The notes beneath the pieces are model-generated. The model saw nothing but the letters and a program-made list of their open reading frames with translations. It was not told where the DNA came from and did not search any database. The position numbers were made by a program, and so were the translations under genes. A DNA stretch of 36,480 nt from a virus. Location: positions 1 through 36,480 of the IMG/VR virus record IMGVR_UViG_3300036759_000105; one strand, 5' to 3'. Shown here piece after piece: positions 3,296 through 20,894 of this stretch; the first letter of the stretch is position 1; every line of letters begins with the position of its first letter.

Positions 3296-3475
3296 GTGGC
3301 GGCAGAGCGATATGTCCGACAAGTCATGGGGATGGTCACTGACGAGCAGGCAGACGCCATCGAGCTGCTCGCCGAGGAGCGTCAGGTCTCCATGAGCAGC
3401 ATCGTGCGCGAAGCGATTCGCGAATATCTGGCCCGCGAGAAAGCCGAACACCTCGCGGCCGTCGCGGCCGGATGA
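3296..3475 (+). CDS. Ribbon-helix-helix (CopG-like) regulator, 59 aa
   Basis: The sequence YVRQVMGMVTDEQADAIELL, then SMSSIVREAIREYLARE, matches an RHH fold: one strand and two helices. It would dimerise and bind a palindromic operator, and one is present just upstream (3264-3281). The GTG at 3296 is chosen because GGAGG lies about eight bases upstream and the frame stays open; the other two nearby GTG codons lead to stops or non-RHH sequence. It is the first gene of the long rightward early operon, so autoregulation of that operon is a reasonable inference. Confidence 0.75.
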   Translation: MAAERYVRQVMGMVTDEQADAIELLAEERQVSMSSIVREAIREYLAREKAEHLAAVAAG

Positions 3476-6205: not shown

Positions 6206-7170
6206 TGCTGAAAGTGGGGCTGATCCAGGTGGGCGGGTCGCTGCCGAATGTCGCGTTGATGCGGCTGGCAACGTGGCACCGACGTATCGGCGACGAGGTG
6301 ATCCTGGACGCGAAGCCGACTGACGCGTGCGATCGCGTCTACGTCTCGACGCTCTTCACGTGGCAGCGGTCGAAGGTGATCGAGCTCGCGGCGCATTTCA
6401 GTCCGCATGCTGACGTCGAGATTGGTGGCTCGGGCTGGGACCTTGCGAAGCGGCTACCCGCCGAGGTCGACGCCATGCCGAACGAGTACAGCCTGTACGG
6501 CATCAGCTATGGCGTTGGCTACAGCTCGCGGGGCTGCATTCGCCATTGTGCCTTTTGCCCGGTCCCGCGGGCGGAGGGGCACGTCCGCGAAGACCAGCCG
6601 ATCGCAGCGCTGCTCAACCCACTAAGCAACCGGCTGATACTGCTCGACAACAACTTCTTCGCGTCCGACTGGCGTCCAAAGATCGAGGAGATTCGGAACC
6701 GCGGGCTGGTAGTTGATTGGCCGCAGGGCATCGACATCCGCCTGGTGGACCGTGAGCAGGCTTCGGTCCTGGGCGACCTGCGTACGCACGGCCAGCTCAG
6801 CGGTGATCGTTTCACACGCCCGGGCACGCTGCACTTTGCGTGGGATTTGCCGTCGAACGATGCACGCCCCGACACGGTCACCGGTGGAATCCGTCTGTTG
6901 TTCGACGCCGGCTTTCGGCCGCGCGACCTGCGCTGCTACGTGCTGATTGGCTACCCGGGCTATGACCTAGCCGAGGAGGTGGCGCGGCTCACGACGCTGC
7001 ACGCGCTGGGCATCGAACCCTACGTGATGGTGTATCGCGACTTCGGTGAGCGCGATCGCCGAGACGTTCGGCGGATGGACCTCCAGCACTGGAATAACGG
7101 CCACGTCTGGCGCTCGGTTGAGTGGCCGGAGTACCGGCGTCGGTCTCGGAAGGGAGCTGTATTTGCATGA
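6205..7170 (+). CDS. Radical SAM protein, 321 aa
   Basis: Cys111, Cys115 and Cys118 in RGCIRHCAFCPV form the CxxxCxxC motif that holds the 4Fe-4S cluster used to split S-adenosylmethionine. The first ~90 residues (VGLIQVGGSLPNVALMRLA, then EVILDAKPTD) look like the B12-binding-type Rossmann domain seen at the front of many radical SAM enzymes, without an obvious cobalamin DxHxxG motif. The rest has barrel features such as LLDNNFFASDW and YVLIGYPGYDLAE. The substrate is unknown; no linked cofactor or nucleotide-modification genes are present. The ATG at 6205 shares one base with the Rpf gene stop. A longer upstream reading of this frame overlaps the Rpf gene and is rejected. Confidence 0.85.
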   Translation: MLKVGLIQVGGSLPNVALMRLATWHRRIGDEVILDAKPTDACDRVYVSTLFTWQRSKVIELAAHFSPHADVEIGGSGWDLAKRLPAEVDAMPNEYSLYGISYGVGYSSRGCIRHCAFCPVPRAEGHVREDQPIAALLNPLSNRLILLDNNFFASDWRPKIEEIRNRGLVVDWPQGIDIRLVDREQASVLGDLRTHGQLSGDRFTRPGTLHFAWDLPSNDARPDTVTGGIRLLFDAGFRPRDLRCYVLIGYPGYDLAEEVARLTTLHALGIEPYVMVYRDFGERDRRDVRRMDLQHWNNGHVWRSVEWPEYRRRSRKGAVFA

Positions 7171-8015
7171 CCCAAGCGCTCGAAAAGCGCCAGGACTGGA
7201 ACATCAAGAGTCAGTCCAACCTGGCCCAGGTGACCGGCTTCGATGACCGGCTGATCAAGCTCATCAAGGCCACGGTCTGCCCGGGCGCGACGCCGCTCGA
7301 GTTGGCGACGTTCCTGTACAACGCGCGGCGCCTCGGGCTGGACCCGATGACGCACCAGATTTATTTCATCAAGTACGACCGCAGCAAGCCGGGCGAGATC
7401 GTCACCGGCATCGACGGCTACCGCTCGCGCGCCGAGAGCAGTGGCGTGTACGCCGGCTCCGACGACCCGGTCTACGAGTACGAGGACGTCGGCCAACCCA
7501 GGGGCGCGCCGTCGAAGGCGACCGTCACGGTGTGGAAGATAGTCGGCGGCCAGCGCGTGGCGTTCACCGCCTCGGCGCGCTGGGAGGAGTTCTACCCGGG
7601 CGACGGCAAGCAGGGTGAGCAGTACCGCAAGCGGCCGCACAACCAGCTGGGCGTGCGTGCCGAGTCGCACGCGCTGAGAAAAGGGTTTCCGCAGCTCATG
7701 CAGGAGCTCGACATGCAGGCTCCGCCGCAGCACTGGTCCGCAGCCGCCGAAGCCGACGAGGAGGCGCGCGACGATCCGCGGGAGATCGCGCGTCTGGCGC
7801 AGCGGCACCGGGAAATCTTCGACGTTGAGGAGGACGAGCCACCGGCACAGACGAAAACTCAAGCACCGAACCAGGGCGCTCCGGTTGGGGCGCCCGAGTC
7901 TAACGGTGCTGAGCGTGCCGCGGAGATCGTCGACAAGGCCAGGGCCGCGGCCCGTCAGCGTGAGCTGGACCTAGCTGAGATCGACCGCCAGCGCAAAGAG
8001 GAAGGTCTGATCTAG
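7167..8015 (+). CDS. bet: RecT/Bet-family single-strand annealing protein, 282 aa
   Basis: The core reads NLAQVTGFDDRLIKLIK, TPLELATFLYNARRLGLDPM, QIYFIKYD, and IVTGIDGYRSRAESSGVYAG: the RecT/Bet (Redbeta-like) annealase, with the typical helix-then-sheet order and the GIDGYR motif. It anneals complementary single strands in phage recombination and repair. The last ~90 residues are acidic and Pro/Ala-rich, ending in a charged helix; this tail may contact a partner. The VRR-NUC nuclease at 4158-4622 is a possible recombination partner, and no classical exonuclease partner is seen in the window. ATGA overlap with the radical SAM gene; normal family length. Confidence 0.9.
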   Translation: MTQALEKRQDWNIKSQSNLAQVTGFDDRLIKLIKATVCPGATPLELATFLYNARRLGLDPMTHQIYFIKYDRSKPGEIVTGIDGYRSRAESSGVYAGSDDPVYEYEDVGQPRGAPSKATVTVWKIVGGQRVAFTASARWEEFYPGDGKQGEQYRKRPHNQLGVRAESHALRKGFPQLMQELDMQAPPQHWSAAAEADEEARDDPREIARLAQRHREIFDVEEDEPPAQTKTQAPNQGAPVGAPESNGAERAAEIVDKARAAARQRELDLAEIDRQRKEEGLI

Positions 8016-10356: not shown

Positions 10357-10773
10357 ATGACCCGCGGCGTGCCCCACTCGCCCGAGCTCCGCGCCCAGGT
10401 CGTCGCCGCAGTGCTGGCTGGCGAGTCCATCAGTGAGGTTGCGCGTCGCTTCGGTGTCGACAAGTCATCAGTTATCCGCTGGGCCGCGGCGGTGCAACCG
10501 GTTGAACCGACCGTCGCGCGCACACGCGAGGCCCTCAGCGAGCTGATCTGGGATGCCGTCGCCGAGACCCTCAAGTCGCTTATTGCTCGAGCCGCAATTA
10601 CTGGACAGGCGGATTGGATCGAGAAACAGTCCGCTGCCGACCTTGCCCAACTGGGCGCTACCGAGTGGGACCGGATCATTCGCATGGTCTCTGGGTTCCG
10701 ACCCGTCGACGACGAGCCAGACGGTCTCCCTGAGCCTGCCCCCGCCGAGTCCGCCGCAGTTGCGGATGCTTGA
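10357..10773 (+). CDS. terS: Probable small terminase subunit, 138 aa
   Basis: The N-terminal helix-turn-helix (HSPELRAQVVAAVLAGESIS then EVARRFGVDKSSVIRW) is the type found in small terminase subunits and transposase OrfA proteins. It is followed by a helical oligomerisation-like region (TREALSELIWDAVAETLKSL) and an acidic Pro-rich tail. It sits directly before the large terminase, overlapping it by eight bases, which is the usual order. Small terminases recognise the packaging site and hand DNA to the large subunit. No transposase OrfB partner is present, so a terminase role is preferred. Confidence 0.8.
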   Translation: MTRGVPHSPELRAQVVAAVLAGESISEVARRFGVDKSSVIRWAAAVQPVEPTVARTREALSELIWDAVAETLKSLIARAAITGQADWIEKQSAADLAQLGATEWDRIIRMVSGFRPVDDEPDGLPEPAPAESAAVADA

Positions 10774-11965
10774 GCAGCGCAAACGGTTCAACGTGGCCGC
10801 GTGCGGACGGCAGATGGGCAAGACGACACTCGGCATTCGGCTTGTGGCACTCGGCGTCCAGGACGGCTGGCCGTGTGCCTGGATGGCACCCACGTACAAG
10901 TACCTCGAGGACGTGTGGCGTCAGTTGCGCCAGGTGCTCGAGCCGATTACCAGCGGAAAGAGCGAGCAGCAGCACCGCATCGCCACGCGCAGCGGCGGCT
11001 CGGTGGAGTGCTGGTCGCTGGACGATCCGGATGCGGCGCGCGGCAGAAAATACCGCCGCATCGTGGTCGACGAGGCGGCGCTGGTGCGCGACCTGGAGAC
11101 GGTCTGGCAAGCATCCTTGCGACCGACGCTGAGCGTGCTGCAAGGCGACGCGTGGTTCCTGTCGACGCCGAAGGGACTGGACACGTTCCACGCGCTGTAC
11201 CAGCTCGGCCAGGACCCACTGCAAACCGAGTGGCAGTCGTGGCAGATCCCCTCGAGCGCGTCGCCGTTCATCAAGCCCGAGGAGCTCACTGCGGCGCGCG
11301 CGGAACTACCCGAGCGGACCTTCGCGCAGGAGTTCCTGGCCGACTTCGTGCAGCTCGAGGGCGCCGGCGTCTTCCGTGGCGTGGACGCCGTCGCTCGTCT
11401 CGAGCCGCAGCCGCCCGCGCAGTACCACCAGTACGTCTTCGGCGTCGACTGGGGCCGCTCGAACGACTTCACCGTCATCAGCATCATCGATGCCACCACG
11501 CTCGAGCAGGTGGCCGTCGATCGCTTCACCCAGATCGACTGGGAGTTCCAATCCGAACGCTTGCACCGCTGGGCCGACCTGTACCAGCCGCGCGCCATCG
11601 TCGCCGAGACCAACGCCATGGGCAACCCGCTCGTCGAGCGCCTGCAGCAGGGCTACGGGCGGGTGTACGGCGACAGCCGGCGCGCGCTACCCATGCAGCC
11701 GTGGCTGGCCACCAACGCGAGCAAGGCCGCGGCCATCCAGTCGCTCAGTCTCGCCATCGAGAACGGCGACATCACGCTGCTGGACGACCAGGTCCAGACG
11801 GGCGAGCTGCTGGCGTACGAGGCCGAGCGATTACCCTCGGGCATGCTCAGGTACGGCGCGCCACAGGGCCAGCACGACGACACGGTCATCGCCCTGGCGC
11901 TGGCCTGGCTCGGGGCGAGCGTGCCGCAGGTCACCACCCGCTCGAGCTACGCGTTCAGTCGATGA
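10766..11965 (+). CDS. terL: Large terminase subunit, 399 aa
   Basis: The ATPase domain has Walker A GRQMGKTT (residues 14-21), Walker B IVVDEA with Asp102/Glu103, and the coupling motif FLSTPKG (131-137). The RNase H-like nuclease domain has Asp228 in FGVDWGRSND, Glu281 in VAETNAMGN and the closing acidic pair in GQHDDTVIALALAW. The protein pumps DNA into the capsid and cuts it. The only ATG giving the right N-terminus is at 10766; no GTG lies upstream in frame. The gene is intact and overlaps the next start by four bases (ATGA). Confidence 0.95.
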   Translation: MLEQRKRFNVAACGRQMGKTTLGIRLVALGVQDGWPCAWMAPTYKYLEDVWRQLRQVLEPITSGKSEQQHRIATRSGGSVECWSLDDPDAARGRKYRRIVVDEAALVRDLETVWQASLRPTLSVLQGDAWFLSTPKGLDTFHALYQLGQDPLQTEWQSWQIPSSASPFIKPEELTAARAELPERTFAQEFLADFVQLEGAGVFRGVDAVARLEPQPPAQYHQYVFGVDWGRSNDFTVISIIDATTLEQVAVDRFTQIDWEFQSERLHRWADLYQPRAIVAETNAMGNPLVERLQQGYGRVYGDSRRALPMQPWLATNASKAAAIQSLSLAIENGDITLLDDQVQTGELLAYEAERLPSGMLRYGAPQGQHDDTVIALALAWLGASVPQVTTRSSYAFSR

Positions 11966-12308: not shown

Positions 12309-15263
12309 GTGGCAGTTGACGATCCGCCGACCGCGTCGTATCTGTGCGAGCTCCAGACGGAGATGTACGACAGGTATCGCCGCGACGACGTGCAGATCGA
12401 CACCACACGCGCCCAGCGCGAGATGCGCATCCCGGCGATGATGGGCGCCGACGAGAAGTTTTCGCTGGTCAACGTGGATCCGCGCGACCCCGACGTCTCC
12501 GAGGAAGGTTTTCAGCAGACGGCCATGCTCACGCTCGAGCGGCCCAAGCTGCACCTCGACGGGGGCGAGTCGGACACGGCCCAGACGGCGGCCTCGCAGC
12601 GCGAGCACTGGACCGAAGAGTGCCTGTGGACGTGCGGCGCAAGAACGCCGGGCATGGACACCATGACGTTCATCACCGACGCGGCGCTGAACGATGGTGG
12701 CGCGTGGAGCAAGATCCTGTTCCTGCCCGACGCGTGGGACAAGCGCTACGCGTATCCAGCGCCCAACCCTGGCGAGTCGTACGAGGCCTGGCAGCACTAC
12801 GACAAGGCCACCGAGGACCTCAAAAAGACCTGCGGCCCGCCGTTTACCTGGGAGTTCGTTGACCCGCGCACGGTCTACCCGGACACCATGGGCGGCCGCG
12901 TGTGCGAGGTGCTCGAGGTCACCGACCGACCGGTCAGGACCACCTTCCGCCGCTACCGGTTAGGACTGGACGGTGACGGCAATATCGTGCCCGAGGAGAT
13001 GGGCCAGCCGCAAGCGTCCAACGCGTGGGGCGCCAACCAGCGGCCGATCCTGCCGACGAGCGTGACGATGATCGAGCACTGGGACGAGACATGGTGTTTT
13101 CCAGCCAACACGCGCGTCGAGTCAGACAGCGATCTCGTCGGGGCCCACAAACGCTGGTACGAGGGGGAACTCGCGACCATCCGCACCGCCCGCGGATACG
13201 AGTTGTCCGGTACCCCGAATCACCCGGTAATGACCGAGCGTGGATGGGTCCCGCTGGGTCAACTCAAACAGGGCGACCGCGTAGTCAGCCGCACGTTCCG
13301 TGAGCAGGCCTCGCCGCGGTATCCACACCCACAGGACCGTCAGGCCCCAATTGGTCAGGTATTTGGTCTTCTTGACCGCCTGGGCGTGCGCCAGGGGCGA
13401 ATGGGGTCCGTGCAGGATTTCCACGGCGACGGGCAGGATCGCCGCGTCGATGTTGTACGAACCGAACGCCTTCTGTGGGATCGGATCAAGACCTCGCTCG
13501 CGCAGCCAGTTCACGATTTCGCGCTCGCCCCGCCCAATCATGACCAGCGACTGCTCGTTGGTGCGGGCCTGTCGTTCGAGATGCGCGGCGGATCGCGGCT
13601 TGCCACGGATCGCGGCGTGCCCCTTCTCGGCAGCCGCGGCCAGGACCGCGCGTTGCTCGGGGGTCATGCGTTCCCACCGGATGCGCGCCGCTTCGAGGTT
13701 GGTGCGCGTCTGGCGTCCCGCGCGACGAATGACCGCGTTGATGTTGCGCGTGTTGTGGCCCAGCTCGGTGGCGATCTGGACCGTCGACTGAGTGAGGTCG
13801 AAATAGCGGTGCAGGACATCGACTGGGTCGATAACGCGGCCGCGCGCGTCCCACATTATGCGTCTAGCCTCGCTGGCCGAGCGCATCGGAATCCCCGCAG
13901 CTTCCAGCCGCGAACTGATGGTGCGATGCGCAACGCCCAGGTCGTTGCCGATCTGGACGCAGGACTGACGGAGTTCGACATAGCGATGGACGATGTCGTC
14001 CATGTCGAGCGGAAGCAGTGGGCGGGGCACGTTTTTAACCTTGAGAGTATAGGTCACACGTACAGCGCCAACGGCATTATTGTGCACAACTGCTCGTGGT
14101 GCGTCTCGGGCCAGAACTACAAGAGCGAGCCGACCGGCCAGGTCGTCAAGCAGTTCAAGCACAACTACGGTTTTCTGCCCTACGACTTCGCGCCCGGTCT
14201 GTGGATGAACTTCTGGCGCAACAGAAAAGTCGGCTGGGGCGTGTCGCAGACGAAACTGTGGCTGGTGCAGTACCGCCAGTACCTGCGCGCCATGCACGCG
14301 CAATATGTCGCACGAGACCTGCTCAGCCCGCTAGTGACCTACGGTGACTCGAGCGCCGCGCCGGTGATCGGCGACGACGGCAAGCCGCGTGATCGCGATC
14401 CGGGGCCGCTGCCGGGCGAGGTCATCAACCTGGGGCCCGGCCGCCAGCTGCAGCGCATCAACTACCCGGACGCGACCACGCTTGAAAAGCACATGTCGCT
14501 GATCGACCAGGCCATTCGCGAGCTCGAGTCGCCGCGGGTCACCACGCTCTCAGGCATGGAGGGCGCCGGCTTCGCCATCTCGCAGGTGCTCAGCTACCAG
14601 CGCGTGCGCGTCGGACCGATCGTCAACAACATCCAGAGTCTGCTCAAGCGTCAGACCGAGAAGCTGTGGGACCTGGCGCAGAACAAGGTCCAGGAAAAGA
14701 TCTGGGTCGGCTACACCGGTCAATCCACCAAGACCGGCAGCGGCTACATCGGCCTGGGCCCTGAGGACTTCGCGCGGCCGGTCCGCATCGAGTGGGACGT
14801 CAAGCAGGAATTGCCGACCGACGACCTGATCAAGGCGCGCTACGCGCACGAGCGCTTGCAGGCCGGCACGTGGGGTAGCGACGAGGCGATCGACTATCTG
14901 GGCGACAACCCAGATGAGATCCGCCGCTCCAAGGCCCGCGATCGCATCCGCCAGTCGCCGGAGTACCAGAAGTGGCTGGATCAGCAAGTGTTTCAGTTCG
15001 CGGGTCGCGGCGACATCCTCGGCGTCGCCGCGCAGGCGCAGGCGATGGCAGCCCAGGGCCAACTGCCGGGAGCTGCGCCTGGAACACCGGGTGGTATGGC
15101 AACGCCAGCACCGGGTGTTTTTGAAGGGGGCGCGGCCGGCGCAGGGGGCGTGCCGGATTTAGCCGCGTTGGCGACGGCGCCGAATGGAGCCGGCGCACTA
15201 CCACCACCTGGTCAGCAGGTGATGCAGGGCGCCGCGGCGAACGTCGGCGCACCGGGTGGATAA
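12309..15263 (+). CDS. Portal protein precursor containing an intein, 984 aa
   Basis: Portal proteins form the ring through which DNA enters and leaves the head. The position after terminase, the long acidic and helical N-terminal part and the Pro/Gly/Ala-rich tail fit a portal of about 652 residues after removal of an intein. Residues 263-594 are the intein. The exteins flank it as EHWDETW and CSWCVSGQNYK. The C-terminal extein has portal-like stretches (MEGAGFAISQVLSYQRVRVG, then IVNNIQSLLKRQTEKLWDLA). The GTG start at 12309 has no clear Shine-Dalgarno site; GTGAAAC direct repeats lie just upstream. Identification as portal is by order and length, not by an exact motif. Confidence 0.8.
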   Translation: MAVDDPPTASYLCELQTEMYDRYRRDDVQIDTTRAQREMRIPAMMGADEKFSLVNVDPRDPDVSEEGFQQTAMLTLERPKLHLDGGESDTAQTAASQREHWTEECLWTCGARTPGMDTMTFITDAALNDGGAWSKILFLPDAWDKRYAYPAPNPGESYEAWQHYDKATEDLKKTCGPPFTWEFVDPRTVYPDTMGGRVCEVLEVTDRPVRTTFRRYRLGLDGDGNIVPEEMGQPQASNAWGANQRPILPTSVTMIEHWDETWCFPANTRVESDSDLVGAHKRWYEGELATIRTARGYELSGTPNHPVMTERGWVPLGQLKQGDRVVSRTFREQASPRYPHPQDRQAPIGQVFGLLDRLGVRQGRMGSVQDFHGDGQDRRVDVVRTERLLWDRIKTSLAQPVHDFALAPPNHDQRLLVGAGLSFEMRGGSRLATDRGVPLLGSRGQDRALLGGHAFPPDARRFEVGARLASRATNDRVDVARVVAQLGGDLDRRLSEVEIAVQDIDWVDNAAARVPHYASSLAGRAHRNPRSFQPRTDGAMRNAQVVADLDAGLTEFDIAMDDVVHVERKQWAGHVFNLESIGHTYSANGIIVHNCSWCVSGQNYKSEPTGQVVKQFKHNYGFLPYDFAPGLWMNFWRNRKVGWGVSQTKLWLVQYRQYLRAMHAQYVARDLLSPLVTYGDSSAAPVIGDDGKPRDRDPGPLPGEVINLGPGRQLQRINYPDATTLEKHMSLIDQAIRELESPRVTTLSGMEGAGFAISQVLSYQRVRVGPIVNNIQSLLKRQTEKLWDLAQNKVQEKIWVGYTGQSTKTGSGYIGLGPEDFARPVRIEWDVKQELPTDDLIKARYAHERLQAGTWGSDEAIDYLGDNPDEIRRSKARDRIRQSPEYQKWLDQQVFQFAGRGDILGVAAQAQAMAAQGQLPGAAPGTPGGMATPAPGVFEGGAAGAGGVPDLAALATAPNGAGALPPPGQQVMQGAAANVGAPGG
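13095..14090 (+). other. Intein (332 aa) within the portal gene
   Basis: The intein starts with Cys (TGT at 13095) in CFPANTRV (block A). Block B is GTPNHPVMTERGWVPLGQL, with the T-x-x-H splice helper. The end reads HVFNLESIGHTYSANGII followed by VHN and then Cys+1 at 14091, so blocks F and G, the terminal His-Asn and the +1 nucleophile are all intact. The splicing Hint parts cover about the first 65 and last 35 residues. The ~230 residues between have no endonuclease motif in this strand; they are the reverse complement of a nuclease gene on the other strand. There is no stop in the 996 sense bases, so cis-splicing should work. Confidence 0.9.
13122..14030 (-). CDS. Antisense homing endonuclease nested in the intein: HTH repeats plus Vsr/PD-(D/E)XK-like nuclease, 302 aa
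   Basis: The protein has two related HTH units, RYVELRQSCVQIGNDLGVAH and RYFDLTQSTVQIATELGHNT, each followed by an AG and basic segment. Then comes a nuclease domain: GEREIVNWLRERGL, PIPQKAFGSYNIDAAILPV, AVEILHGPHSP, and a final KTKYLTNWGLTVLWVWI. The Glu...Asp...Glu pattern fits the Vsr-like/EDxHD and DUF559 group of restriction-fold nucleases, which includes homing enzymes near inteins and introns. The GTG at 14030 has AAGG eight bases upstream; an ATG at 14003 is also possible. The homologous part ends near 13250, and the rest reads through the intein block B code. Balanced composition separates it from shadow frames. Confidence 0.85.
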   Translation of the reverse strand: MPRPLLPLDMDDIVHRYVELRQSCVQIGNDLGVAHRTISSRLEAAGIPMRSASEARRIMWDARGRVIDPVDVLHRYFDLTQSTVQIATELGHNTRNINAVIRRAGRQTRTNLEAARIRWERMTPEQRAVLAAAAEKGHAAIRGKPRSAAHLERQARTNEQSLVMIGRGEREIVNWLRERGLDPIPQKAFGSYNIDAAILPVAVEILHGPHSPLAHAQAVKKTKYLTNWGLTVLWVWIPRRGLLTERAADYAVALFELTQRDPSTLGHYRVIRGTGQLVSAGGADGREFPLVPAFVGPDEIAV

Positions 15264-16856: not shown

Positions 16857-19800
16857 ATGCCGTTTCTGCTGCTGGACGACGCGACCGACGAGGCCACGCG
16901 GCGCCTGCGCGAGTTCGGCCAGGGGTTGCTGCAGCCCATCACCACGACCATCGAACAGGCCGGCGCTACGGTCCAGCCGGGCCCGCAGGTGGTCCCGCCC
17001 GGTGCGGCGATTCCCAATGCGCAGGCGGCCACGCAGCGGCTGCAGGACTACGGCTCGAGTTTGCTCCAGCCGCTCATCCCGCAGGCGCCGACGCAGATCC
17101 AACCGACCGAAGCGGGCGGCTTGCAGGACATCCTGCCCAGACTGCAGCAGCACGGGCAGCAGGCCCTCGACCAGGCCACCCAGCAGGCCCAGCAGCTCCA
17201 GACGCAGACGCAGCAACTGCTGCAGCCACCCCAGGAGGGCCAGCTGTTCGGCCCCGGTGCCCAGAGCCAGGCGCAGCAAGCGGCTCAGGCGCAAGTCGTC
17301 CAGCCATCAGGGGGTGAAGTCACACCGGGCGGCGACCTGCGCACCTTCGCACGTCAAGTCGCGCAGCAGGCCGGCATCGACCCCGACATTTTCATCCGTC
17401 AGATCCAGCAGGAATCCGGCTTCAACCCCACGGCCAAGTCCCCCGCCGGCGCCATCGGCATCGCCCAGTTCATGCCGGCGAGCGCGGCGGGGCTGAATCT
17501 GGACCCGACCGACCCGTACGCGTCGCTCCTCGCGGCGGCGAAGGAGGACGCGCAGAAGCTGGCGCAGTATGGCGGCGACTGGGCCAAGACGCTGGCGGCG
17601 TACAACGCCGGCCCCGGCGCGGTCGAGAAGTACGGGGGCGTGCCGCCGTACGCCGAGACGCAGAGCTACGTCAAGACCATCCTGGGCGACAGGAACCCGA
17701 TCCAGGCCGTGCAGCAGGGCGCGCAACAGGCCGTCCAGGGCGCGCAGCAGGCGGTATCCAACGTGCTGCCGGCCGTCTCGCAGTTCGGCGACAAGCAGCT
17801 CACCGCGGCGGAAGCGTACGCCGCGTGCGGGCCCGCGGCCGCCGTCCGCTTCGCGCAGATGATGGGCCGCAACCCGACGCTGCAGGAAGCGATCGGACTC
17901 GCGCAGCAAGTGGGCTGGACCGTCGACCAGGGCATGGCCGGCCTGAGCTCCGAGTCGCGACTGTTCGACAAGATGAACATCCCGCACCGCATGGTCGGCG
18001 CCGACTGGTCAGCACTCGCGAAGGAAGCACAGAGTGGCAATCCCGTCACGCTGAGCACGCCCGGCCACTACTTCACCGCCGACAGCTACGACCCCAACAC
18101 GGGCGCGTTCCACGTCGGCTCGAGCGGCACCGACCTGCGGGGCGGCTCGGAGTGGATGACGCCGGCGCAGATGGAAGCGCGTATGGGCCAACTGCAGGGC
18201 GGCATGGCCGTCGACAACCCGCAGGTGCCGGGCCCGTCGCCCCTGGCGAATCCCGTGCAGGCCGCGCAACAGGGGCTCGGCAACCTGGTGCAGGGCGCGG
18301 GCCAGAAGGTCCAGCAGGGACTCCAGGACCTGACCAACTTTGCCTCACCCGTCACCGACTTCGTGGCTCGGCAGAACCAGTTCGCACGCGAGGGGCGGGC
18401 ACAGGCCGGCCTGCCCGAGGACCCGCTGCTGGCACCCGTTGACCTGAGTCGACCAGGCGCCAACTTTGGCTTCGATCCTTACCGCGACATCGTCGAGCAA
18501 GGGCTGCCGAGCATCGCCCAGGGCGTGCAAAAGGGCGACGTTGGGCAGGTGCTGGGTGGTGTGCTGCAGACTGGCCTGGGCGCGATCGGCGCCGCGGCCG
18601 GGCCGGCGGGTCCTGAGGCGCGTGCCGGGGTCGATGCCGTCGTGGCCGCGCGCGATACCGCCGCCAACCAACTTCAGACGCTCGAGCGGGTCCTCGACGA
18701 ACCCGGTATCACGGGCCAGGCGCGGGGCGAGCTCGAGGACCTGGCGACGCAGCAGCGAGGCGCCGTGGCGGATCTCGGTCAGCGCGTGCAGAACCTGCTC
18801 GGGGGCCGGCAGGGCGGGCCCGATGATGTCACACGTCAGCTAGGCGCCGCGAGCCCGATGTTCGCGGCGCGCCTCGCGGGTGGTGTCGGCGGCGGACTGC
18901 TGGGCAATGTCACCACGCCACCCGAAGCCAGCCCCTTCGAGCGCGCACTGCGGGTCGGGACACTGGCGACCGCAGGTGCCGCGGCACCTGGCCTGGCCGA
19001 TGTCGCCGCGGTTCGGAACCCGGCGATCGACCAGACGATCCTCGAAAACCTGCGCGCCGGTGGACTCAATCCCAACGTGTACCAGAGCCAGGGGCGCGGC
19101 TTGATCGGCACCGCTGTCGACCTGACCAAGCAAGGCATGCTCTCCAATCCGGTGACCAGCATCACCAACGCGATCGGCAACACCATCGAGTTGCTCCGCT
19201 CGCCGGCCGCGCTGGCGCTCGGTGGTCGACCGTCGGATGCCGCCGCGGGCATGGCCGCGGTTGGGCAGGCGATCCCCGAGGCCGGCCTGAACGCGTGGCG
19301 GGCGCTGCGGGGTGTGCAGGGTCCCACGCTTGGCGCGGGCGCCTCCACCACGCGGCCATGGGAGCCGGTGTTTCGTCTGCTGGGCGCCGCGGACATGTTC
19401 ACGCGCACGCTGGGTGAGTACCAGGGCATGGCCGAGCGCGGCTCACAGCTGCTCCGAGACGCGGGCATGCGACCGAGCGATCCGGGTGCGGCCAACTTCC
19501 TGGCGAGCCACGCGCAGGAGCTCTACGACGCCGGTACGGCGAGCGGCGGCCGGAGTGTCTTCCAAGCCGTGCGCGATGCCAGCAGTGGGTTGCCTTTCCT
19601 GGACAACATGTTCCGCAACTACGCTACCTGGAAAGAGGGCATGCTCAACTCCCCGCGCCTGCGCGACCAGGCGCTCGGTGCGCTCGCCGACTTCCAGATC
19701 CCCTTTGCGGGCGTGCCGACACGCATGGTGCAGATCGGGCTGGGTCGCCTGCCGCCGGTGACGCAGGCGACGGGTGCCGTGCGCGCCATCCGCGCGCTCA

Positions 19801-20894
19801 CACAGGGCGACATCCCCGCAGCGCAACGGGCCATCGGCGAGACTGCGCTCGAGAGCATGATCCAGGCACAGATCGCCAACGGCATTCGCGAAGGCAACAT
19901 CGTCGGTGCCGAGGACCCCGACCATCCCGGTGGCGCCATTCGGGTGGCTGGCAACTGGTACAACTTCAACGATCTCGGCGCGTACGCGCTGCCGTTCAAC
20001 ATCATGGCGAGCTTCGCGGACGCGGCGGAGAAGGCCGGCCAGGGCCAGCCGTTCGACAACGAGTGGGACCAACGCGCCGCGCAGACCCAGGCCGGTTTCA
20101 ATGCGAGCCTGAAACCGTTCATGGACGCGCTACCAGGCATGCAGCTGGTCCACATGCTGGCCGCGCTGGGTCAGGGTGGTGCGACGGGTGCGTTGCGGCA
20201 GCAGGCGCAGGACACCATGTCGCGCATCACGGCACCGGGTGCCGCTGCGTTCATCGAAAACCTGATGGACCCCGTGGCGCGCGACATCAACAAGCAAGGC
20301 GTGCAGTCGCTGTGGGAGTACCCCCAGTCGCGCTGGCCGGGCCTCGCGGAGCTGCTGCCAGCCAAGATCGACCCCACGACCGGCCAAGTGCTCGAGAAGC
20401 GACGGACAGGTCCCGGCATCCTGGTCGGTCAGGAAAACCCGGACGTCGAATCGCTCATCACCCAGGAAGCCAACCGACTCAAGAAGCAGGGCTACGACAT
20501 CAGCGCGCCGAAGGCGTATCCGCAGTCCGTCACGATCGGCGGGTCAAAGATTCCCCTCAAACCCGACCAGCAGCGCGCGGTCACCGAGATAACGGGCCAG
20601 ATGCTGGGCAACTTCGCCGATCGTCTCAACCAGCCGGCGTACCAGAACGCCTCCGATGATCAGAAGGCAAAGATGATGCAGGCCTACCTGAACGCGGCTG
20701 ATCGTGCCCGCGTCTCAGCCGCGGTGCAGGTGCTGGGGCGTGATGAGGCGCGGCGGCTTCAGGTGAAGTACCGCGACGTAGCTGGTCGCCTGGTGAACGC
20801 CGGCGTCCCGGCATCCTCGGAAGAGTTGCCCTTCAGCATGGCGAGTAGCCAGAACGTGCTGGATCAGATGCGCGGACTGGCAGGTGTCGCCTAA
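16857..20894 (+). CDS. Large internal virion (ejection) protein with SLT and C39-like domains, 1345 aa
   Basis: Domains in order: an N-terminal Gln/Ala-rich region; a soluble-lytic-transglycosylase domain at 161-280 with catalytic Glu186 in QQESGFNP, AGAIGIAQFMP and AYNAGPGAVEKYGG; a cysteine-peptidase (C39/papain-like) domain at about 318-450 with Cys324 in AACGPAAAV, His404 in TPGHYF and Asp412 in YDPNTG; then ~900 residues of Ala/Gly-rich helical sequence, with hydrophobic stretches around the middle. T7 gp16-type proteins similarly join a transglycosylase to a very long virion protein that helps build the channel across the cell envelope. Here the peptidase adds cross-link cutting. No frame break is seen. 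Confidence 0.8.
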   Translation: MPFLLLDDATDEATRRLREFGQGLLQPITTTIEQAGATVQPGPQVVPPGAAIPNAQAATQRLQDYGSSLLQPLIPQAPTQIQPTEAGGLQDILPRLQQHGQQALDQATQQAQQLQTQTQQLLQPPQEGQLFGPGAQSQAQQAAQAQVVQPSGGEVTPGGDLRTFARQVAQQAGIDPDIFIRQIQQESGFNPTAKSPAGAIGIAQFMPASAAGLNLDPTDPYASLLAAAKEDAQKLAQYGGDWAKTLAAYNAGPGAVEKYGGVPPYAETQSYVKTILGDRNPIQAVQQGAQQAVQGAQQAVSNVLPAVSQFGDKQLTAAEAYAACGPAAAVRFAQMMGRNPTLQEAIGLAQQVGWTVDQGMAGLSSESRLFDKMNIPHRMVGADWSALAKEAQSGNPVTLSTPGHYFTADSYDPNTGAFHVGSSGTDLRGGSEWMTPAQMEARMGQLQGGMAVDNPQVPGPSPLANPVQAAQQGLGNLVQGAGQKVQQGLQDLTNFASPVTDFVARQNQFAREGRAQAGLPEDPLLAPVDLSRPGANFGFDPYRDIVEQGLPSIAQGVQKGDVGQVLGGVLQTGLGAIGAAAGPAGPEARAGVDAVVAARDTAANQLQTLERVLDEPGITGQARGELEDLATQQRGAVADLGQRVQNLLGGRQGGPDDVTRQLGAASPMFAARLAGGVGGGLLGNVTTPPEASPFERALRVGTLATAGAAAPGLADVAAVRNPAIDQTILENLRAGGLNPNVYQSQGRGLIGTAVDLTKQGMLSNPVTSITNAIGNTIELLRSPAALALGGRPSDAAAGMAAVGQAIPEAGLNAWRALRGVQGPTLGAGASTTRPWEPVFRLLGAADMFTRTLGEYQGMAERGSQLLRDAGMRPSDPGAANFLASHAQELYDAGTASGGRSVFQAVRDASSGLPFLDNMFRNYATWKEGMLNSPRLRDQALGALADFQIPFAGVPTRMVQIGLGRLPPVTQATGAVRAIRALTQGDIPAAQRAIGETALESMIQAQIANGIREGNIVGAEDPDHPGGAIRVAGNWYNFNDLGAYALPFNIMASFADAAEKAGQGQPFDNEWDQRAAQTQAGFNASLKPFMDALPGMQLVHMLAALGQGGATGALRQQAQDTMSRITAPGAAAFIENLMDPVARDINKQGVQSLWEYPQSRWPGLAELLPAKIDPTTGQVLEKRRTGPGILVGQENPDVESLITQEANRLKKQGYDISAPKAYPQSVTIGGSKIPLKPDQQRAVTEITGQMLGNFADRLNQPAYQNASDDQKAKMMQAYLNAADRARVSAAVQVLGRDEARRLQVKYRDVAGRLVNAGVPASSEELPFSMASSQNVLDQMRGLAGVA

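Follow-up and report, generated by a model that had tools for sequence, protein, structure and literature searches.

A phage homing intein that very probably carries its endonuclease gene on the opposite strand of its own DNA

Results

A probable portal gene interrupted by a contiguous intein

The window analysed here is the whole of the viral record IMGVR_UViG_3300036759_000105 (36,480 nucleotides), in which a gene for the terminase large subunit is followed by a long uninterrupted frame with the following features on and around it:

10553–11965: TerL, the terminase large subunit (PHROG 2, phrog_2, 2.3e-40)
12309–15263, plus strand: host gene, probable portal, 984 codons (uninterrupted frame, downstream of TerL, with intein-free relatives)
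12309–13094, plus strand: N-extein
13095–14090, plus strand: intein of 332 residues, between a W codon and the +1 Cys codon (motifs, Pfam and TIGR profiles, Foldseek)
13095, plus strand: Cys1 of the intein
13212–13223, plus strand: block B, TPNH (T40 and H43 invariant in 41 inteins)
13416–13430, plus strand: sense DFHGD, lying over the antisense catalytic strand VAVEI (both strands frozen)
14025–14042, plus strand: block F, GHVFNL (the His312 codon is the antisense start codon)
14067–14093, plus strand: block G, ANGIIVHN, then Cys+1 (14091)
14091–15263, plus strand: C-extein

The host gene, a late gene, is probably a portal gene, a label that the earlier note had also used and that is supported by the position after TerL only, with no portal match in Pfam, PHROG or PDB. 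Farther downstream, positions 16857–20894 encode a virion protein of 1345 aa with a lytic transglycosylase-like region (PHROG 669, 1.3e-31).

The earlier reading of the insert as a contiguous intein at 13095–14090 is borne out, as its frame is open, Cys1, TPNH and the C-terminal HN followed by Cys+1 are present (the class 1 HINT criterion), and it matches Pfam Intein_splicing (2.3e-9), TIGR01445 and TIGR01443. Across the family, Intein_splicing is matched by 41/41 members and Cys1 is invariant in the 41 aligned inteins. On these intact motifs, we infer that the intein splices. The predicted sense structure resembles the splicing domain of the Mtu RecA intein (Foldseek, E 1.7e-4): residues 1–126 and about 290–332 fold, whereas residues 127–290 have a pLDDT below 50, and neither a family match nor an in-frame endonuclease domain was found in the sense core by profile search. 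The proposal that the sense side of the nuclease region is only a loop thus applies to residues 127–290 but is too broad for the rest, as residues ~80–126, DFHGD included, form part of the HINT fold and are under constraint from both strands, and as the nuclease gene reaches beyond the loop to overlap block B and part of block F.

Comparison of related host genes with and without the insert places the junction precisely. Nineteen intein-free IMG/VR relatives of the host gene (L006–L024) are 80–96% identical to it, with the junction falling exactly between codons, and the nearest empty relatives read DETW-ASWC where intein-bearing genes read DETW-intein-CSWC, with Ala instead of Cys at +1; two relatives (L021 and L022) have Cys at +1 although they lack the intein. 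A single metagenome yielded both a near-identical intein-bearing contig (L004) and an intein-free relative (L019).

A nuclease gene antisense to the intein

Over nearly the same bases, the minus strand is free of stops from 14303 down to 13122, with the following features:

13122–14030, minus strand: antisense nuclease gene, GTG start at 14030, 302 aa, stop at 13122–13124
13899–14003, minus strand: HTH unit 1, antisense residues 10–44 (AlphaFold model; profile match to 2lvs)
13722–13826, minus strand: HTH unit 2, antisense residues 69–103 (AlphaFold model; family profile)
13320–13538, minus strand: restriction-fold nuclease core, residues 165–237 (E169 near-invariant, D195 and E204 invariant)
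14039–14042, minus strand: Shine-Dalgarno AAGG, 8 nt before the start, within block F
14076–14081, minus strand: −10-like AATAAT in block G (5/6, no TG), at the site of TGnTATAAT in other members; weak in the window

The GTG at 14030 is most likely the true start, and the stop falls at codon 10 of the intein. Both frames are in exact codon register, sense first positions being antisense third positions. Taken alone, the nuclease of the window falls below Pfam thresholds and finds nothing in PDB, so that single-protein searches would suggest that it has no homologue, a difficulty resolved by profiles built from its relatives. The family profile matches the DUF559 nuclease 3hrl (1.4e-7), the HTH protein 2lvs (1.2e-8) and the homing endonuclease I-Bth0305I (3r3p; 0.0017), and among 44 members 38 match the MTES_1575 REase and 13 match DUF559 (E<=0.01), with HTH_23 found in 21. 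In agreement with this, the AlphaFold model of the antisense protein (pLDDT 87) consists of two three-helix HTH units and a restriction fold, as the earlier note had deduced from the translation, and I-Bth0305I ranks second and third among its Foldseek matches (prob 0.96–0.98), at modest E values of 0.055–0.092. The fold is Vsr-like, but the best relatives are MTES_1575, DUF559 and I-Bth0305I rather than Vsr itself; the VAVE[VI] strand contains no literal EDxHD signature, with which the conserved E169, D195 and E204 were not superposed. The N-terminal HTH part (residues 1–80, window 13122–14093) matches PHROG families named HNH endonuclease (7.7e-8 and 3.2e-6), which suggests that DNA-binding modules are common to homing nucleases of different catalytic folds.

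The nested arrangement is widespread

It had been stated beforehand that the absence of any homologue of the minus-strand protein, or relatives of the intein with the same loop and no open minus frame, would refute the nesting, and neither was encountered. Queried with the minus-strand protein, tblastn returned 127 phage records, mostly at genes annotated MuF-like or head morphogenesis, from Gordonia phages, Jersey- and Kagunaviruses, Aaphi23, and Vibrio, Pseudomonas and Klebsiella phages, and isolate phages also carry the nested design; a search with the sense intein returned 125 records. Scanning IMG/VR through the nuclease gave 330 relatives, and all 80 that were kept lie nested in an open sense ORF, with intein motifs recognisable in nearly all. 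The same is true of 16/16 further loci found through the nuclease in bacterial genomes (Chloroflexota, Ignavibacteriota, Actinomycetota, Acidobacteriota, Bacillota, Cyanobacteriota and Pseudomonadota). Starting from the sense protein instead, the nuclease was present in 72/72 relatives with both ends identified and its frame fully open in 71 of them, the remaining one (L218) having a single antisense stop, at the usual start position; as the ranking in this search favours full-length relatives, rare nuclease-free versions may be missed.

No full-length free-standing copy of the nuclease was found among the relatives retrieved through it; partial, weaker matches to free-standing genes exist, as expected for a DUF559-like core. 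None of the opened records (e.g. L025, L026, L027, L030 and L032) has the nuclease annotated, only the sense gene, and Snoke is one record in which the intein is annotated. In two loci from Streptomyces and Microbacterium (L135 and L137), the match is confined to the C-terminal half of the nuclease and no block B pattern was found; they possibly form a divergent subfamily.

Selection acts on each strand in its own part of the intein

Wherever the antisense frame has TTA, CTA or TCA, the sense strand reads a stop. At the 64% GC of the window, only ~3.5 such forbidden codons are expected per strand and none is seen, which is weak evidence taken alone; it is the comparison across the family that makes double coding decisive. 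In 85 nuclease genes, which include members at 32–46% GC, 454 forbidden codons are expected from the codon usage of the exteins and none is seen. The reverse count (585 expected, 0 seen) is partly built in, since the antisense ORFs were chosen from open frames.

Substitutions also distinguish the two strands. In the interior, differences at sense positions 1/2/3 number 833/317/537, with position 1 exceeding position 3 in 12/12 independent pairs, whereas the N-terminal and C-terminal splicing parts show 109/31/191 and 17/16/75, respectively, with position 1 exceeding position 3 in 0/12 pairs for either part, so that a single ORF evolves under the sense reading at its two ends and under the antisense reading in between. 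Where sense DFHGD overlaps antisense V-A-V-E-[VI], the antisense Ala is GCC in 51/51 cases and the Val is GTG in 50/51, synonymous usage being frozen on both strands. No constraint specific to the antisense frame is seen in its ~60 C-terminal residues, which lie over blocks A and B, and this tail seems to do no more than shadow the sense strand.

Initiation signals embedded in intein motifs

Read on the opposite strand, the block F His codon, present in 52/55 inteins, supplies the start codon of the nuclease, and the Leu codon of the same block supplies its Shine-Dalgarno; this Leu is written CTC in 43/55 inteins versus 13.5 expected (p 2e-19). In block G, I-I-[AT] is coded ATT ATA GCA/ACA, which reads on the antisense strand as TGnTATAAT, a perfect extended −10; this is the case in 13/20 members versus 0.24 expected, and these 13 represent nine lineages below 50% identity, with an extein GC of 0.45–0.71. 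The Shine-Dalgarno and promoter p-values ignore relatedness among members and are thus optimistic. For the window, a sigma-70 scan called no promoter. Five members (L085, L086, L087, L114 and L115) lack the standard block F start codon and Shine-Dalgarno, and in a control with canonical inteins from genomes, a His before block F was found in 0/6 usable cases, too few for statistics.

A conversion tract flanks the intein in near-identical phages

Most relatives have an empty site. In Guernseyvirinae, it is uninterrupted in 413/497 records, judged by matches that cover 80% or more of a 600-nt query, and among Gordonia phages, Angelicage has the intein and Geodirt does not, at 97% identity there. 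The most telling pair consists of two Salmonella phages, SaI_NFG_5577 with the intein (L040, PQ488694.1) and vB_CECAV_044 without it (L278, PQ220373.1), which match at 98.9% identity along 21.7 kb of one flank and at 99.8% along 6.4 kb of the other. At the insertion, they differ at 33 positions in the 117 nt upstream and 14 in the 38 nt downstream (2384–2500 and 3317–3355 of PQ488694.1), mostly by synonymous changes, and outside this tract they do not differ at all for >500 and >750 nt. Such clustered differences in near-identical phages are a gene-conversion tract derived from a diverged donor, the kind of scar that homing is expected to leave. For the window itself, evidence of mobility is limited to presence/absence and the changed +1 codon, co-conversion being known from its relatives. 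The window also encodes a RecT-family recombinase (7122–8015; Pfam 8.1e-16), which might act together with the intein in homing by recombination.

Discussion

We propose, with high confidence, that this element is a homing intein and that its own DNA, read on the opposite strand, encodes its endonuclease, with splicing, expression and cleavage specificity being inferred. The sequences by themselves show the intein motifs, the in-register nuclease gene, strand-specific selection, the initiation signals and, in one pair, a recent transfer that left a conversion tract; that the antisense product does the homing is an inference, made without RNA, protein or cleavage data and strongly backed by that natural tract. 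The claim of a nuclease gene lying antisense within a contiguous intein, formulated from the window alone, is borne out by the evidence, the nesting recurring in 80/80 IMG/VR and 16/16 bacterial loci.

Could the sense interior rather be a real conserved domain, and the minus ORF its shadow, produced by high GC and codon register? In-register antisense ORFs are indeed common in GC-rich DNA, block B is shadowed by the C-terminus of the antisense frame, and sense DFHGD is conserved too. However, interior substitutions fall at antisense third positions, the nesting holds at 32–46% GC, a Shine-Dalgarno and start are embedded, and it is the antisense translation that folds and matches nuclease and HTH families while the sense core does neither, which leaves this reading with almost no credibility. 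For the interior taken as a whole, the strand flip and the low-GC members rule out a shadow of the sense protein, and the latter members also rule out a GC artefact; insertion of a pseudogene is ruled out by the retention of all splicing residues. That the intein still splices while the nuclease of the window is a fossil is hardly more plausible: the weak antisense promoter of the window would fit such decay, but the 302-aa frame is intact with every catalytic residue present, and the closest pair differs most at antisense third positions (11/4/7, admittedly small numbers).

Somewhat less improbable, albeit still unlikely, is that the nuclease is real and serves not homing but superinfection exclusion or defence, sheltered in the intein, as a nuclease joined to HTH units is a general design for targeting DNA. 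Yet PADLOC assigns no defence family to the window protein, the nuclease always lies within an intein, a homing endonuclease is among its closest folds, and the conversion tract and presence/absence pattern speak for mobility; besides, cutting of intein-free rivals would yield both effects together.

If the homing reading is correct, the sense strand would be read through as part of the host protein, in which the HINT domain would fold from both ends, excise itself and ligate the exteins, with most of the middle tolerated as a loop. The antisense gene would be translated separately, from the block F start codon and its Shine-Dalgarno, and in many members it may be driven by the extended −10 promoter in block G, probably early, from its own promoter and ahead of the late genes. 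Its two-HTH, Vsr-like/DUF559-type product most likely recognises the intein-free site and cleaves it, and repair would then copy intein and nuclease together.

Among known systems, in-frame LAGLIDADG/HNH homing inteins (PI-SceI, Mtu RecA intein) share the HINT blocks, a conserved insertion site, an endonuclease gene between blocks B and F and presence/absence among relatives, but here the endonuclease lies on the opposite strand, has its own translation signals and extends over block B and into block F. The I-Bth0305I/EDxHD homing endonucleases and "fractured genes" reportedly occur free-standing or between the halves of split inteins; they have in common with the present family the Vsr-like fold, homing and a link to inteins, and differ from its antisense nesting in a contiguous intein. 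REase_MTES_1575 (PF18741) and DUF559 (PF04480) share the nuclease core and the catalytic D...E strand, which are here fused to two HTH units and found at full length only inside inteins. In nuclear rDNA, some group I introns carry homing genes antisense to the host transcript, a like orientation, but the intron is RNA and its reverse strand need not encode protein, whereas here both strands do. The ShiLan insertion in a mycobacteriophage methylase, which does not splice, contains an HNH nuclease encoded on the same strand but in another frame, with no detectable RBS (PMC11855218); there too, a phage homing nuclease lies hidden across a host frame that stays open, although here the strand is opposite, the insert has a splicing domain, and a Shine-Dalgarno and often a promoter are embedded. 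We found no published antisense endonuclease within an intein, the nearest case being that of PMC11855218, in a partial coverage of the literature that excluded Dassa 2009 and a preprint on actinophage inteins (10.1101/2025.01.02.630785, "Non-Canonical Architecture"), which may already have recorded the Gordonia cases.

More generally, we consider it likely that such entangled inteins are widespread: one segment would encode two proteins on opposite strands, blocks G and F would hold the promoter, Shine-Dalgarno and start of the nuclease, DFHGD and VAVE would share bases, so that neither protein could easily be lost alone, and the nuclease would be made before the late genes from its own promoter. 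A gene found in more than 100 deposited phage genomes appears to have escaped annotation. The arrangement breaks with the textbook view of the intein endonuclease as a domain of the intein polypeptide and offers, in cultured phages, a clear example from nature of the same bases encoding a functional protein on either strand, with selection measurable on each. It is relevant to the persistence of homing genes in the face of decay, to the acquisition of nucleases by inteins and to the evolution of genes that overlap on opposite strands.
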